This document shows positions 230 to 10,217 of a DNA stretch of 12,761 nucleotides, piece by piece. The stretch's first letter is position 1; each line of letters begins with the position of its first letter. The notes beneath the pieces were generated by a model. That model saw nothing but the letters and a program-made list of their open reading frames with translations. It searched no databases and had not been told where the DNA came from. Location: contig JAFPCJ010000139.1 of assembly GCA_017423885.1 (NCBI GenBank), positions 1 through 12,761 of the forward strand, in the 5' to 3' direction. This DNA comes from Clostridia bacterium (GTDB lineage: Bacteria; Bacillota_A; Clostridia; Oscillospirales; Acutalibacteraceae). The position numbers were made by a program, and so were the translations under genes.

Positions 230-256
230 CCGAGCCTTTTACGGCTCGGTTTTTTT
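230..256 (+). terminator. Intrinsic terminator after the DtxR-family gene
   Basis: CCGAGCC (230-236) and GGCTCGG (243-249) form a perfect 7-bp stem with a 6-base loop, followed directly by seven T (250-256). It lies just after the stop codon at 222 and isolates that gene from the next unit. A weaker A-loop hairpin at about 266-280 follows and may be incidental. Confidence 0.88.
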
Positions 257-296
257 ATTGGCCATCCGCTAAAAAAGCGGGTTTATAAGTCTACGG

Positions 297-325
297 TTGC
301 AAAAACTTGACATATATGGTATAAT
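297..325 (+). promoter_or_regulatory. Extended -10 sigma-A-type promoter of the pseudokinase gene
   Basis: TATAAT at 320-325 is preceded by TGG at 317-319, the extended -10 TGN motif, and by TTGCAA at 297-302 with 17-bp spacing. Transcription should start near 332, giving a leader of about 50 bases with a small A-loop hairpin (ATGCG/CGCAT, 350-364). The obvious TTGACA at 307-312 is only 7 bp from this -10, so I did not use it as the -35. Confidence 0.66.
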
Positions 326-382: not shown

Positions 383-2092
383 ATGCTGAATACAGAAAAG
401 TTGTGTCCTGCCTGTATGTCTGACAACGGCGGAGAAAAGATCTGCCCCATGTGCGGTCATGATTCTGCCGCGCAAAACCCAGAGAATGCACTTCCTGTCG
501 GCTTCAGACTTGACGGACGCTATGTTATCGGAAAAGCTCTTTCATCCAACGGCGAGGGTATAACATATATCGCTTGGGACGGAAGCACTGATACTGCAGT
601 ACATATAAGGGAATATTTCCCATTGAGTGCCGCGATCCGCAATCCCGACTATACCGTATCCATGATGCCTGACCGAAAATATGCATTTAATGAAGGTCTT
701 ATGGAATTTATCGAGCGAGGAAAAAGTCTGCTGCACAGCGAACTGCCCTCGGTGATACCGACAAATACGGTTTTTGAAGAAAGTGGCACCGCTTACACCT
801 CTTTTGCAATAATTCAAAGCATATCGCTCGAAGATTTTCTTGAGCGAAACGGCGGCAGACTCCGTTGGGAGCAAGCACGTCCGCTTTTCCTGCCCCTTAT
901 TGATACTGTTGCCGCGCTTCATAAAGAGGGTATTGTTATAGGCGGCATATCTCCTGAAACAGTAATGGTAGGCAGAGACGGAAAGCTTCGTTTCTCATAT
1001 CTCGGAATTCGCCGTCTGCGTGACAGTTCATCCGATCTTGATGCAGAGCTTTTTGACGGCTACAGCGCTCCCGAGCAATATGGCATCCCCGAAATGCAGA
1101 TGGGAGAAGCATCCGATGTTTATGCCTTAAGCGCTGTACTTTTCAGAGTCCTTATAGGAAACACACCACCTGTCTCCCCCTCGCGTCTTGAGAAGGACAC
1201 TCTTACTATTCCTGCTCATTTTGCCGAGGAATTACCGCGTCAGGTATTGGTATCACTTGCAAACGGTATGCAGGCACATCCCGCAAAGCGTACCGCAACC
1301 ATAGAAGCCTTTAAAAACGAGCTGGTTTACGGCGAGACTGCAGAGAGCATCCGAGCAGGCAATCAGAAGCGTGCTGCCGAGCAGAACGCAGTAGCCTCGA
1401 AAGCCAAGAGCACCAAAAAGAAGGGTGCTTCAGGCGCGAGATACGCTGTTGTTTCAGCAGTTATTACCGCCGCCATATTCCTTGTGATCGGTGCTGTAGT
1501 GCTTTGGATATTCCGTGACACCATTTTCCCCTCTAAAGACACTGAATATAACACAAGCTCTGACTTTATCACCGAATCGGGCGGACCGCAGATAGGTGAT
1601 TATGACAGCGCTGTGGTCGATTCGGTCAAGACTTATGAGGTTCCCAATCTGCTCGGAACCTATTTCTCTCAAATAGAAGATATTGAGGATTATGAGAAAT
1701 TCAAGTTCAACATCCAAGGTAAGTCCTATTCTGATAAGTATTCCAAGGGACAGATATGCGCGCAATCCATTGCCGCTGGCACAGGGGTTGAAAAGGAGAC
1801 CACCATTAATGTCACCATTAGTCTCGGAGCCAAGGAATTCAAGATAGCAAACGTTATCGGTCTCACCGAGGAAAAAGCCAAGATAGAACTGCTCAAACAA
1901 GGTTTCCTTTATGAAAATATCAAGGTAGAAGAGGCTTATGACGAGGACGGACTTCCCGGTGTTGTTTTGGAGCAATCCCCCGAGTTTAACACTAAAACTA
2001 CCGCTGAGGCCGAAATACGTATCTATATAAACTCTTATACGGGCGAGGACGAAGAGGATACCTCTCGAAACGATGACTATATTTTCAATTAA
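383..2092 (+). CDS. Membrane PASTA pseudokinase with N-terminal zinc ribbon
   Basis: A 569-residue protein related to bacterial Hanks-type Ser/Thr kinases (PknB/PrkC-like). Residues 8-24 carry two CxxC pairs (C8, C11, C21, C24), a zinc ribbon. A kinase-like domain spans about 45-315, with a basic linker at 326-350, one membrane helix at about 354-377, and two extracellular PASTA-like repeats at about 417-482 and 485-552. The fold landmarks APE (229-231) and the helix-F DVY (245-247) are present. The catalytic set is not: the beta3 Lys is R76 (HIRE), HRD is I186-G187-G188, the Mg-binding Asn is T193 and DFG is Y206-L207-G208. I therefore predict a catalytically inactive sensor or scaffold that still binds cell-wall ligands outside and partners inside. 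The start is supported by GGAG at 373-376, six bases before ATG. The gene is monocistronic or ends at the hairpin at 2148-2196. Which muropeptides or partners it binds cannot be read from sequence. Confidence 0.85.
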   Translation: MLNTEKLCPACMSDNGGEKICPMCGHDSAAQNPENALPVGFRLDGRYVIGKALSSNGEGITYIAWDGSTDTAVHIREYFPLSAAIRNPDYTVSMMPDRKYAFNEGLMEFIERGKSLLHSELPSVIPTNTVFEESGTAYTSFAIIQSISLEDFLERNGGRLRWEQARPLFLPLIDTVAALHKEGIVIGGISPETVMVGRDGKLRFSYLGIRRLRDSSSDLDAELFDGYSAPEQYGIPEMQMGEASDVYALSAVLFRVLIGNTPPVSPSRLEKDTLTIPAHFAEELPRQVLVSLANGMQAHPAKRTATIEAFKNELVYGETAESIRAGNQKRAAEQNAVASKAKSTKKKGASGARYAVVSAVITAAIFLVIGAVVLWIFRDTIFPSKDTEYNTSSDFITESGGPQIGDYDSAVVDSVKTYEVPNLLGTYFSQIEDIEDYEKFKFNIQGKSYSDKYSKGQICAQSIAAGTGVEKETTINVTISLGAKEFKIANVIGLTEEKAKIELLKQGFLYENIKVEEAYDEDGLPGVVLEQSPEFNTKTTAEAEIRIYINSYTGEDEEDTSRNDDYIFN

Positions 2093-2097
2093 AGTGC

Positions 2098-2126
2098 TTG
2101 ACATTTTGTATAACACATAATATAAT
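2098..2126 (+). promoter_or_regulatory. Consensus sigma-A promoter of the glpP operon
   Basis: TTGACA (2098-2103), exactly 17 bp, TATAAT (2121-2126): both hexamers match the consensus perfectly. It begins five bases after the pseudokinase stop codon and should start transcripts near 2133. The first structured element, a hairpin, follows about 15 bases later, so constitutive initiation followed by control of elongation is plausible. Confidence 0.85.
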
Positions 2127-2147
2127 AATTATTGCAGAGTATTTGGA

Positions 2148-2196
2148 GATGCAAGGACCGCAGGAGAAGTGTGTCCTTGCATCCTTTATTTTTTGG
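2148..2196 (+). terminator. Terminator-like leader hairpin before glpP, candidate GlpP target
   Basis: GATGCAAGGAC (2148-2158) pairs perfectly over 11 bp with GTCCTTGCATC (2173-2183). The 14-base loop (2159-2172) contains GGAGAAGTG, and the T-rich TTTATTTTTT follows (2185-2194). It lies inside the transcript from the promoter at 2098, upstream of glpP. It may also end the pseudokinase transcript. The T tract begins two bases after the stem and is broken by one A, so termination could be partial. Control by GlpP is inferred, not shown. Confidence 0.62.
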
Positions 2197-7584: not shown

Positions 7585-8409
7585 ATGGCGGTTTATGCCG
7601 ATATACTCATTATTCTTGAGCTTGCGGTAAACTATTTCCTGCTTGCCCTCACCGCCGCACTTTTAAGGCTTGAAAGCTCCATACCGCGCCAATTAGCGGC
7701 GGCACTTGTCGGCGCTTTATCCTCGCTTACCATATTTTTGCCCGAATTTTCCGAGCCTTTACTTGTGGCAATTCAGCTTTTAGTAGCCCTCATCATGGCA
7801 TGCGTTGCTTTCTCTGCAAGGCGGCTGAAGCGTGTCTTACGCAATACAGCAGTACTTTTTGCCGTTTCCTGCGGATATGCGGGAGGCATGATGGCATTAT
7901 GGACACTGCTTCACCCGAGCGGAATGGTAGTACATAATTCGGTAGTGTATTTCAATATTTCTCCGCTTTTTTTAGTTCTTTTTTCGACAGGTGCATATTT
8001 TGCGATCATGCTTTTCCGCTATATTTTCGGGCGCAATGCTTCACTCGCCGAAAGGTGTACAGTAAAGCTTTTCGCCCAACAGAGCAGTATAGAGCTTGAA
8101 GCTATAGCCGATACGGGAAACTCCCTTGAGGATGTATTCGGGTTATCCGAGATAATCATTGCCGACCGCGCCGCCGCGTATGCATTGCTCGGCGACCTTG
8201 ACAACAATGAAGAGCTTAAAAAGCGCTATCGGGCACTCCCCTGCTCAACCGTATCGGGAGACGGTATGCTTGACGGATACCGCTGTGACAAAGCCTACAT
8301 AGAATACAACGGCAAAACGCTTGAGCTTCGCCGCCCTATACTTGCCGTTTCCAAGCAAAGCCTCGGTCAGGACTACTCTGCTATAGTGAACCCCAAGATA
8401 TTAAGCTGA
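7585..8409 (+). CDS. spoIIGA: Sigma-E processing peptidase SpoIIGA
   Basis: A 274-residue membrane aspartic protease that cleaves pro-SigE in the mother cell after asymmetric septation. Five hydrophobic segments fill the N-terminal half (about 3-28, 36-53, 58-77, 86-109 and 122-148). The cytoplasmic protease domain follows, with catalytic D176 in the DTGN motif (176-179) and family-typical [18 protein letters not shown] (218-235) and YSAIVNP (264-270). B. subtilis SpoIIGA is about 310 residues, so this copy is compact, mostly in the C-terminal half. The start at 7585 follows AAAGGGGG (7569-7576) by eight bases. sigE follows 22 bases after the stop, the usual operon order. The enzyme is expected to need the forespore signal protein SpoIIR for activity; spoIIR is not in this window. 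Confidence 0.9.
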
Positions 8410-8431
8410 AAACAGCGGAACGGAGAAAAAT

Positions 8432-9124
8432 ATGAGTATCAAACAAATATATCTGTTTATTCTGAAAAAATTAAAGGCTTTAAGACCTGTACACTATATT
8501 AACGGTCCCGAAACACTTCCACCACCGCTTGAAAGCGAGGAGGAGCACCGCTTACTGCTCGAAAAAAGCGATACCGCGCGCGAAAAGCTGATAGTACATA
8601 ATCTGCGGCTTGTAGTATACATAGCCCGAAAGTTCGACTCTGCCGCGGGCGGTGTTGAGGACCTGATATCCATTGGTACCATTGGGCTTATAAAGGCAGT
8701 CAACACCTTTTGTCCCGACCGCAACATCAAGCTTGCCACCTATGCTTCGCGCTGTATCGAAAACGAGATACTTATGTTTTTGCGTAAATGTGCGTCACTT
8801 AAAAATGAGGTATCTATAGACGAACCTCTCAACATTGATTGGGATGGCAATGAGCTTCTGCTCTCGGATGTTTTGGGAAGTGACGGTGACGAGATCGGCC
8901 GCTCTATTGAGCAGGAGGACGAAAGATATCTACTGCTTCGCTTGGTTGACAGTCTCTCTGCAAGAGAAAAGCAGATAATGGAAATGCGCTTTGGCATGAA
9001 CGGCTATCAGGAATACACACAAAAAGAAGTTGCCGACACGCTCGGTATATCTCAATCATATATTTCAAGACTCGAAAAGCGCATAATCAGCAAATTGAAA
9101 AAACAGATTGAAAAGGTGGTATAA
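8432..9124 (+). CDS. sigE: RNA polymerase sporulation sigma factor SigE (pro-form)
   Basis: A 230-residue sigma-70-family factor, clearly Sig[11 protein letters not shown] (29-38), VVYIARKF (61-68), [18 protein letters not shown] (76-93), [15 protein letters not shown] (100-114) and [19 protein letters not shown] (131-149) are near-invariant in the family. The region 4.2 helix-turn-helix is [22 protein letters not shown] (196-217). The N-terminal amphipathic pro-sequence is present. By alignment with the B. subtilis EIYYIGG site, SpoIIGA should cut between H21 and Y22 in VHYING, giving a shorter pro-region (21 residues) than the 27 of B. subtilis. A GGAG site (8422-8425) precedes ATG. sigG, often next to sigE in Bacilli and many Clostridia, does not follow here. 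SigE drives the early mother-cell regulon. Confidence 0.95.
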
Positions 9125-9449: not shown

Positions 9450-9458
9450 GTTATCAGA

Positions 9459-9563
9459 ACTTCAGGGCGGGGTGCAATTCCCCACCGGCGGTAAAGCCCG
9501 CGAGCCTTTTTGGTTGATTCGGTGAAATTCCGAAGCCGACGGTACAGTCCGGATGAAAGAAGT
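9459..9563 (+). ncRNA. FMN riboswitch (RFN element) aptamer
   Basis: The conserved RFN core is unmistakable: ACTTC (9459-9463) pairs with GAAGT (9559-9563) as P1. AGGGCGGGGTGCAATTCCCC (from 9464), ACCGGCGGTAAAGCCCGCGA, the hairpin TTCGGTGAAATTCCGAA and CGACGGTACAGTCCGGATGA follow in canonical order. It binds flavin mononucleotide and turns off the downstream gene when flavin is plentiful. Placement directly upstream of ribU is the classic arrangement. The expression platform is the terminator at 9589-9620. Confidence 0.97.
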
Positions 9564-9588
9564 CGGTACAATTATTATTGTATTTTCG

Positions 9589-9620: not shown

Positions 9621-9638
9621 GAATGGTGGGTACATATT

Positions 9639-10217
9639 ATGAACAAGAAAAAAACGCTTTCACTTACTATAGTTGGTGTTATGACAGCCGTAGCAACCGT
9701 TATATACATGGTTTTCCCCGAGGTGCCGCTCGTTCCGGGAGTTGAATATCTGAAGCTTGATTTTTCCGATATTCCTGCAATACTTACAAGCATCCTTTTA
9801 GGTCCTTTAGGCGGAATTGCGGTAGAGGTCATCAAAAATATCATTCATCTTTTCCGCACCACTACTGCAGGCATCGGCGAGCTTATGAACATCGGAATAG
9901 GCTCGGCTATGATACTCTCACTCTCTTCCTTTTCCCGTCTTTTTGCAAAGCTATTAAAAAAAGACGCGGTTTCCCCCGCGCCCTATTTTTTGTCTGCTGT
10001 AATTTCTGTTGCCATAACCATTCTTGCAGGCTGGCTCTTTAACGGACTTCTTACCCCTGTTTACTTCAAGATAGCCGGAATTCCCATAACCTCTGCGGCA
10101 GTTTTTGCAGGTGTGTGGGGGTCTACACTGCTCAATACCGTAAAAGCAATATTCAATCTTCTTCCCTTTTTCCCTGTTTATTACGCCTGCCAAAAGGCTT
10201 TTGCAAGAATGAAGTAA
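9639..10217 (+). CDS. ribU: Riboflavin ECF transporter substrate-binding component RibU
   Basis: A 192-residue S component with about six membrane helices. It has the RibU core YLKLDFSDIPAILTSILLGP (37-56), GGIAVEVIKNIIHLF (58-72) and TGIGELMN-like AGIGELMNIGIG (77-88). Together with the shared EcfA1/A2 ATPases and EcfT, encoded elsewhere, it imports riboflavin. The frame is open further upstream, but that part lies in the riboswitch and terminator. ATG 9639, eight bases after GGTGGG (9625-9630), is the start consistent with homologues (MNKKKTLSLTIVGVMTAV). It is regulated by the FMN riboswitch. The stop is one base from the stop of the convergent HAD gene. Confidence 0.95.
   Translation: MNKKKTLSLTIVGVMTAVATVIYMVFPEVPLVPGVEYLKLDFSDIPAILTSILLGPLGGIAVEVIKNIIHLFRTTTAGIGELMNIGIGSAMILSLSSFSRLFAKLLKKDAVSPAPYFLSAVISVAITILAGWLFNGLLTPVYFKIAGIPITSAAVFAGVWGSTLLNTVKAIFNLLPFFPVYYACQKAFARMK

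Follow-up and report, generated by a model that had tools for sequence, protein, structure and literature searches.

A conserved family of PASTA-receptor pseudokinases in Clostridia, with a metallophosphoesterase as candidate partner

The pseudokinase gene of the window (the whole stretch of 12,761 nucleotides analysed here) encodes a predicted membrane receptor with extracellular PASTA repeats, and belongs to a family that is well maintained in Clostridia, among them many uncultured gut bacteria, and that shares the loss of kinase catalytic residues. Judging by the alignments, two losses define the family, those of the HRD Asp and of the αC Glu; loss of the β3 Lys or of the DFG Asp is not a family trait. 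The reading we favor, with confidence about evenly balanced, is that the protein is a wall-sensing receptor of a dedicated pseudokinase family that would signal by protein binding, with a metallophosphoesterase as leading candidate partner. Judged against the open literature that was searched, the PASTA receptor is a new pseudokinase variant: no paper on this family or on such a pseudokinase-phosphoesterase pair was found there, most subscription papers lying outside the scope of the search.

The frame, membrane helix, zinc ribbon and two PASTA repeats recognized in the first-pass annotation are all intact in the 569-residue product, which is read from a single open frame (383-2092, +) with GGAG 6 bases 5' of its ATG (Table 1). 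The substitutions claimed at the catalytic positions (R76, IGG at 186-188, T193 and YLG at 206-208) likewise lie exactly where they had been placed. Promoter-like sites within 200-2400 numbered 8 in a consensus scan, against 3.7 expected in shuffles; for terminator-like sites the scan found 2 against 2.2 expected. Next to the gene, the window has an mntR-like fragment and a gene block with glpP, mgtC-like and glycerol-3-phosphate oxidase-like members. A sigma-70 promoter that matches the consensus perfectly (12/12) and, behind it, a strong hairpin with a T-run (z -4.1) occupy 2098-2195 (+), 5' of the gene for a glycerol-3-phosphate-responsive antiterminator (PF04309), and look like the attenuator leader of a glycerol operon. 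Farther along are an FMN riboswitch (9454-9568, +; Rfam RF00050, 115.3 bits), behind which the S component of an ECF transporter (9627-10217, PF12822) is probably a riboflavin transporter, and a spoIIGA-sigE pair (7585-9124, +) whose products score 124 against a cut-off of 210 (SpoIIGA) and 338.8 against 339 (SigE), and are divergent yet recognizable sporulation genes.

Table 1. Positions of the pseudokinase gene, its encoded domains and substituted residues, and nearby expression signals in the window
Feature	Coordinates	Strand	Evidence
Terminator-like hairpin and T-run, 3' of upstream mntR-like fragment	230..259	+	Consensus scan, sequence
Sigma-70-like promoter 5' of gene: TTGCAA, 17 nt, TATAAT, with TG ahead of it	297..325	+	Consensus match only
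PASTA-receptor pseudokinase gene (P0001), 569 aa	383..2092	+	ORF, Pfam, homologues
N-terminal zinc ribbon, C8-x2-C11 / C21-x2-C24	404..454	+	Cys conservation
Pseudokinase domain, about aa 37-317	491..1333	+	Pfam, AF2 model, VIA-align to PpkA (aa 34-318)
E58 in glycine loop	554..556	+	Column comparison with family and active cousins
R76 at β3 Lys position	608..610	+	Alignment
R112 at αC Glu position	716..718	+	Alignment
I186-G187-G188 replacing HRD	938..946	+	Alignment
T193 replacing catalytic-loop Asn	959..961	+	Alignment
Y206-L207-G208 replacing DFG	998..1006	+	Alignment
Single transmembrane helix, ~aa 355-377, after Lys/Arg-rich stretch	1445..1513	+	Sequence; model helix 352-381; boundaries approximate
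PASTA repeat 1, aa 418-480	1634..1822	+	Pfam, match to PDB 3py9
PASTA repeat 2, ~aa 484-551	1832..2035	+	Second Pfam stretch; 3py9 profile match to aa 551; boundaries approximate

The family was delimited in two ways. A homologue search gave 920 matches (E <= 1e-3) from 7995 scored candidates, of which 120, the query included, were listed; two conserved peptide patterns, used to scan GTDB contigs, yielded 74 loci, each by its title from a MAG or an 'uncultured' record and many from gut, faecal or rumen samples. Eighteen deeper relatives and 13 active zinc-ribbon cousins served as further comparison sets. The HRD Asp was absent from all 120 listed proteins (Gly 114, Ala 6), all 74 loci (Gly 62, Ala 10, Asn 1, Ser 1) and all 18 deeper relatives, and the αC Glu was missing from every member of the same three sets; both residues were present in 13/13 active cousins. 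The catalytic-loop Asn was retained in 0/120 listed proteins and 5/74 loci, the DFG Asp in 5/120 and 16/74. At the β3 position Lys was kept in 94/120 listed proteins, with Arg in 22, and in 39/74 loci, with Arg in 32; Lys and DFG Asp were retained together in 5/120 and 12/74.

Other positions of the protein are conserved. The motif around GGISPETI is conserved family-wide, the APE Glu and the helix-F Asp occur in all members compared, as the first-pass annotation had noted for this copy, and all four zinc-ribbon Cys are present wherever the region is (gaps in at most 1/120 and 2/74). Position 58 of the glycine loop is E in 117/120 listed proteins and E or D in 67/74 loci, versus Phe in 12 and Trp in 1 of the 13 active cousins. 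Whole-gene omega was 0.03-0.10 in 10 pairs of relatives, which were hand-picked for closeness and in some cases saturated (dS >2). The gene is thus under strong constraint, apparently without kinase catalysis, and the proposal of a dedicated pseudokinase under purifying selection held up across the 120, 74 and 18 sequences. The kinase fold is retained by Pfam and the model, and at least one catalytic residue is lost conservedly in orthologues, as expected of a pseudokinase. The statement that every catalytic residue is replaced was correct for this copy, for 26/120 listed proteins and for 31/74 loci, all five tested residues being missing there; the rest keep at least one. The proposed comparison with orthologues was similarly divided, loss of the HRD Asp and αC Glu being universal and that of the β3 Lys and DFG Asp not.

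With the catalytic motif columns left out of the tree, 41 of the 42 rows for pseudokinases fell into one clade (SH-aLRT 99). The remaining row, the long-branch pseudokinase L118 from genome G030, lay outside in the free tree; the likelihood improved when all 42 were constrained to one clade (AU p 0.665), and the family apparently has a single origin. L118 (910-2823) accompanies a family member, L071, in the same genome. It is a zinc-ribbon pseudokinase of very divergent sequence, with FGAISPET, no DFG and two PASTA stretches, and possibly lost catalysis independently. Descent from PrkC was ruled out by tree and profile. The kinase domain groups with PpkA and with the order's own zinc-ribbon kinases, and is not a degenerate PrkC/PknB.

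The same-order zinc-ribbon Ser/Thr kinases (L119, L120, L136-L146) adjoin the pseudokinases in the tree and share with the query the ribbon and the VAIKEYxP and SPDN segments, but have longer ectodomains and, in 13/13, an intact Lys, αC Glu, HRD, Asn and DFG Asp. With its CxxC/CxxC ribbon and shared kinase-domain ancestry, the query belongs to this lineage. The zinc ribbon had been suggested as an output module; because the same four Cys occur in all 13 cousins with intact catalytic residues, it is not a special output module but an ancestral feature. Three intact kinases, L138 (157-4188), L139 (138-4232) and L119 (775-3483), are 900-1360 residues long, two of them with extra outer domains (Big_2, RCC1-like), and contain eight, four and four PASTA stretches, respectively; they are possible models for the ancestral receptor.

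PASTA domains bind muropeptides. One study (PMC6428115) reports lipid II binding by PknB. Given this known role of PASTA domains, the outer part would sense wall material, a view to which the carboxypeptidase-like neighbor described below also contributes. In the proposed mechanism, the extracellular PASTA part would bind fragments of peptidoglycan or lipid II, and ligand binding or clustering would change the intracellular pseudokinase, which would act as a protein-binding switch or scaffold without phosphate transfer. A kinase fold that lacks the base, the αC Glu and a constant Mg ligand, and has an acidic glycine loop, is most likely a binding surface. Its leading partner would be the metallophosphoesterase, itself without two canonical motif residues; an S11 carboxypeptidase-like protein, whose active site is altered in the window's subfamily, could play an enzymatic or a binding role at the wall. 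The whole module would then work largely by binding.

The metallophosphoesterase is the most specific candidate partner. A gene for this calcineurin-like protein lay directly upstream of the pseudokinase gene on the same strand in 46/74 loci (gap 15-357 bp, median 50 bp), 45 of which also had a divergent S11 gene, and the gene downstream of the pseudokinase differed between loci. In the other 28, some of them cut at contig ends, the mechanical gene call gave no adjacent metallophosphoesterase. Among the carrier genomes of 30 of the 74 loci, all 30 encoded one, away from the pseudokinase in 11. Across 147 sampled genomes of the order, a degenerate metallophosphoesterase was found in 15/19 carriers versus 7/128 non-carriers (Fisher p = 4.6e-12, kinship not corrected), leaving 4 carriers without it and 7 non-carriers with it; since related genomes are not independent, part of this association may be shared descent. 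The window's pseudokinase has neither the metallophosphoesterase nor the S11 gene beside it, so that the partner of this copy is extrapolated. No metallophosphoesterase adjoined the pseudokinase in the neighborhoods of the 18 deeper relatives, where yebC adjoined in 6; a phosphatase link in these subfamilies was rejected when the protein of about 248 residues that recurs upstream proved to be YebC.

Metallophosphoesterases carry the motif D..GD..GNH[E/D]..H..GHxH, as given in PMC8366450, and the neighbor does not match it in full. The Asn of GNH was lost in 48/48 readable rows (GTH 47, GPH 1) and the first His of GHxH in 49/49 (G[SA]xH); the L009 protein scores 34.5 against PF00149 (gathering score 21.5). 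It differs from MPPED2 (3rl3; G252H mutant 3rl4), Dbr1 and Mre11, with 11-16% identity, in lacking the GNH Asn as well, and a PDB sequence search with it gave nothing useful. A metallophosphoesterase clade without the GNH Asn and first GHxH His (L165-L190 and L224), often divergent from an S11 gene, occurs also in genomes without the pseudokinase.

S11 D,D-carboxypeptidases have the catalytic motifs SxxK, SxN and KTG. The S11 protein of L017 scores 154.9 against PF00768 (gathering score 27.6). In metallophosphoesterase-linked copies from the window's subfamily the SxN Asn was present in 0/48 (Gly 45, Ala 3), KTG was kept in 45/48 and the Ser and Lys of SxxK in 39/48. Three cluster c1 rows with no phosphoesterase called within 400 bp stand outside this count: L015 (340-1455, SGAD), L029 (SAND) and L063 (SSGD, the gene call probably being at fault). 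The controls, from the same kind of genomes, came from a search with 69 matches, 19 linked and 50 unlinked; the unlinked proteins kept the Asn in 39/50 (30/30 best-scoring, 9/20 lower-scoring). Loss of the Asn therefore seems enriched in, and not peculiar to, linked copies, and does not by itself show inactivity because 11 of the 50 unlinked proteins lack it too. The 9 linked copies that also lost the Ser or Lys of SxxK are better evidence; taken as a whole, the S11 neighbor supports the proposed module only weakly. In deeper lineages the metallophosphoesterase-S11 pair persists even where the pseudokinase is elsewhere, and 6/16 linked S11 copies there read SGND and are intact (L167-L171, L177). 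A second, unlinked class of S11 D,D-carboxypeptidase-like proteins (L271, L274-L278, L281) has SGAD or SGAE for SxN with SxxK and KTG intact. Cluster c24 (L048, L049, L053, L058, L064), tried as a divergent carboxypeptidase, turned out to be another membrane protein.

If all three proteins are former enzymes, a stronger version of the mechanism follows, in which PASTA pseudokinase, pseudo-metallophosphoesterase and, in some lineages, pseudo-D,D-carboxypeptidase would sense peptidoglycan and relay the signal by protein-protein binding only, in parallel to catalytic PrkC. We consider this doubtful, though it agrees with the sequence data; its third part, the pseudo-D,D-carboxypeptidase, is only partly supported.

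Two alternatives to the receptor with a phosphoesterase partner have some standing. The receptor may instead act on the PrkC/Stk1 of the same cell, as heterodimer partner, ligand decoy or phosphorylated docking platform, the metallophosphoesterase being a bystander; this we regard as possible, though on the unlikely side. Both proteins have PASTA repeats, and MviN-PknB-FhaA is a precedent in a 2025 review of bacterial pseudokinase families (PMC12599244). A PASTA kinase above the NF033483 cut-off was present in 19/19 carriers identified among the 147 sampled genomes, and 26 of the 30 carrier genomes encode a full-length kinase in which both HRD and DFG are present (G004 and G028 belong to both sets), so that the active PASTA kinase sought in the first-pass annotation does exist, at least in relatives. 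However, NF033483 proteins passed the cut-off in 130/147 genomes overall, and because the kinase is near universal in the sample their co-occurrence says nothing on partnership. Nor does the pseudokinase domain group with PrkC, and prkC was absent from the fetched neighborhoods of the pseudokinase loci (75 + 18), in which no PrkC-like frame other than the pseudokinases occurred.

The second alternative, which we hold to be comparably unlikely, is that the gene block reflects old synteny only, with metallophosphoesterase, S11 protein and pseudokinase working in separate pathways. The block is vertically inherited, deeper subfamilies have other neighbors, the window lacks both genes, and in G034, G067 and G044 the metallophosphoesterase-S11 pair occurs although no pseudokinase was detected. 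Against this, the block stays together while its downstream side varies, the genes tend to occur in the same genomes even when they lie apart, and catalytic residues are lost in both kinase and phosphoesterase. Moreover, S11 genes lay within the 1.5-kb flank of 16/21 degenerate but 0/9 canonical metallophosphoesterases inspected.

Still less probable is that nucleotide binding is retained, or that the domain has some activity other than that of a kinase. SelO (AMPylation) and SidJ (glutamylation) are kinase folds with altered motifs and non-kinase activity, according to the review (PMC12599244). A β3 Lys or Arg is kept in 116/120 listed proteins and 71/74 loci, the acidic glycine-loop residue is conserved, and a few members retain Lys and DFG Asp together. 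But the αC Glu and HRD Asp occur in no member examined, the Asn is lost in 120/120 listed proteins and 69/74 loci, and with a variable DFG Asp the family is left without a shared Mg site; the acidic loop residue should also disfavor phosphate. Residual or displaced kinase activity, with a neighboring acidic residue such as E192 or D199 (after R198) as base, is very improbable: in the alignment E192 occupies the Asp position of the active cousins' SPDN and D199 falls in a turn past the catalytic loop, and neither the αC Glu nor the Mg ligands are present. That several substituted catalytic positions mark a decaying gene, a possibility already discounted in the first-pass annotation, is contradicted by the family-wide conservation, the intact frame and domains and the low omega, and can be set aside.

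Few bacterial pseudokinases have been studied. The present family is strictly conserved, apparently arose once, and has both intact same-order cousins and a candidate partner; it therefore offers a testable case of wall-receptor signaling after loss of catalysis. With catalytic residues lost in the phosphoesterase and partly in the carboxypeptidase-like protein, this would, if true, be an unusual gene block shifting from enzymes to binding proteins.

Among known systems, PpkA (PDB 5hnv, 5x1r), a type VI secretion kinase from another kind of bacterium and system, differs from the query in that HRD is present in the alignment and PASTA does not match the chain of known structure. PrkC, PknB and Stk1 (NF033483) have the same kinase-transmembrane-PASTA order, and the PASTA repeats of the query match 3py9 and 3m9g; unlike them, the query lacks the catalytic residues, carries a zinc ribbon and derives from another kinase lineage. 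Against the NF033483 model it scores 117.2 bits, below the curated cut-off of 450, and of the traits of that type it has the two PASTA stretches but not the HRD Asp, DFG Asp or β3 Lys (G188, Y206 and R76 instead). In the 2025 review (PMC12599244), 'PASTA' appears once, in the reference list, and 'zinc' and 'Clostridia' never. The pseudokinases it covers include the DYD group, with a β3 Arg, no αC Glu and DYD replacing DFG; the query shares the first two traits (R76, R112) but reads YLG. They also include ActPs3/MviN, with a deletion in the activation loop, MviN being a cell-wall scaffold that provides docking for PknB and FhaA (PMC12599244). Both MviN and the query are pseudokinases, the query having a PASTA ectodomain and no flippase part.
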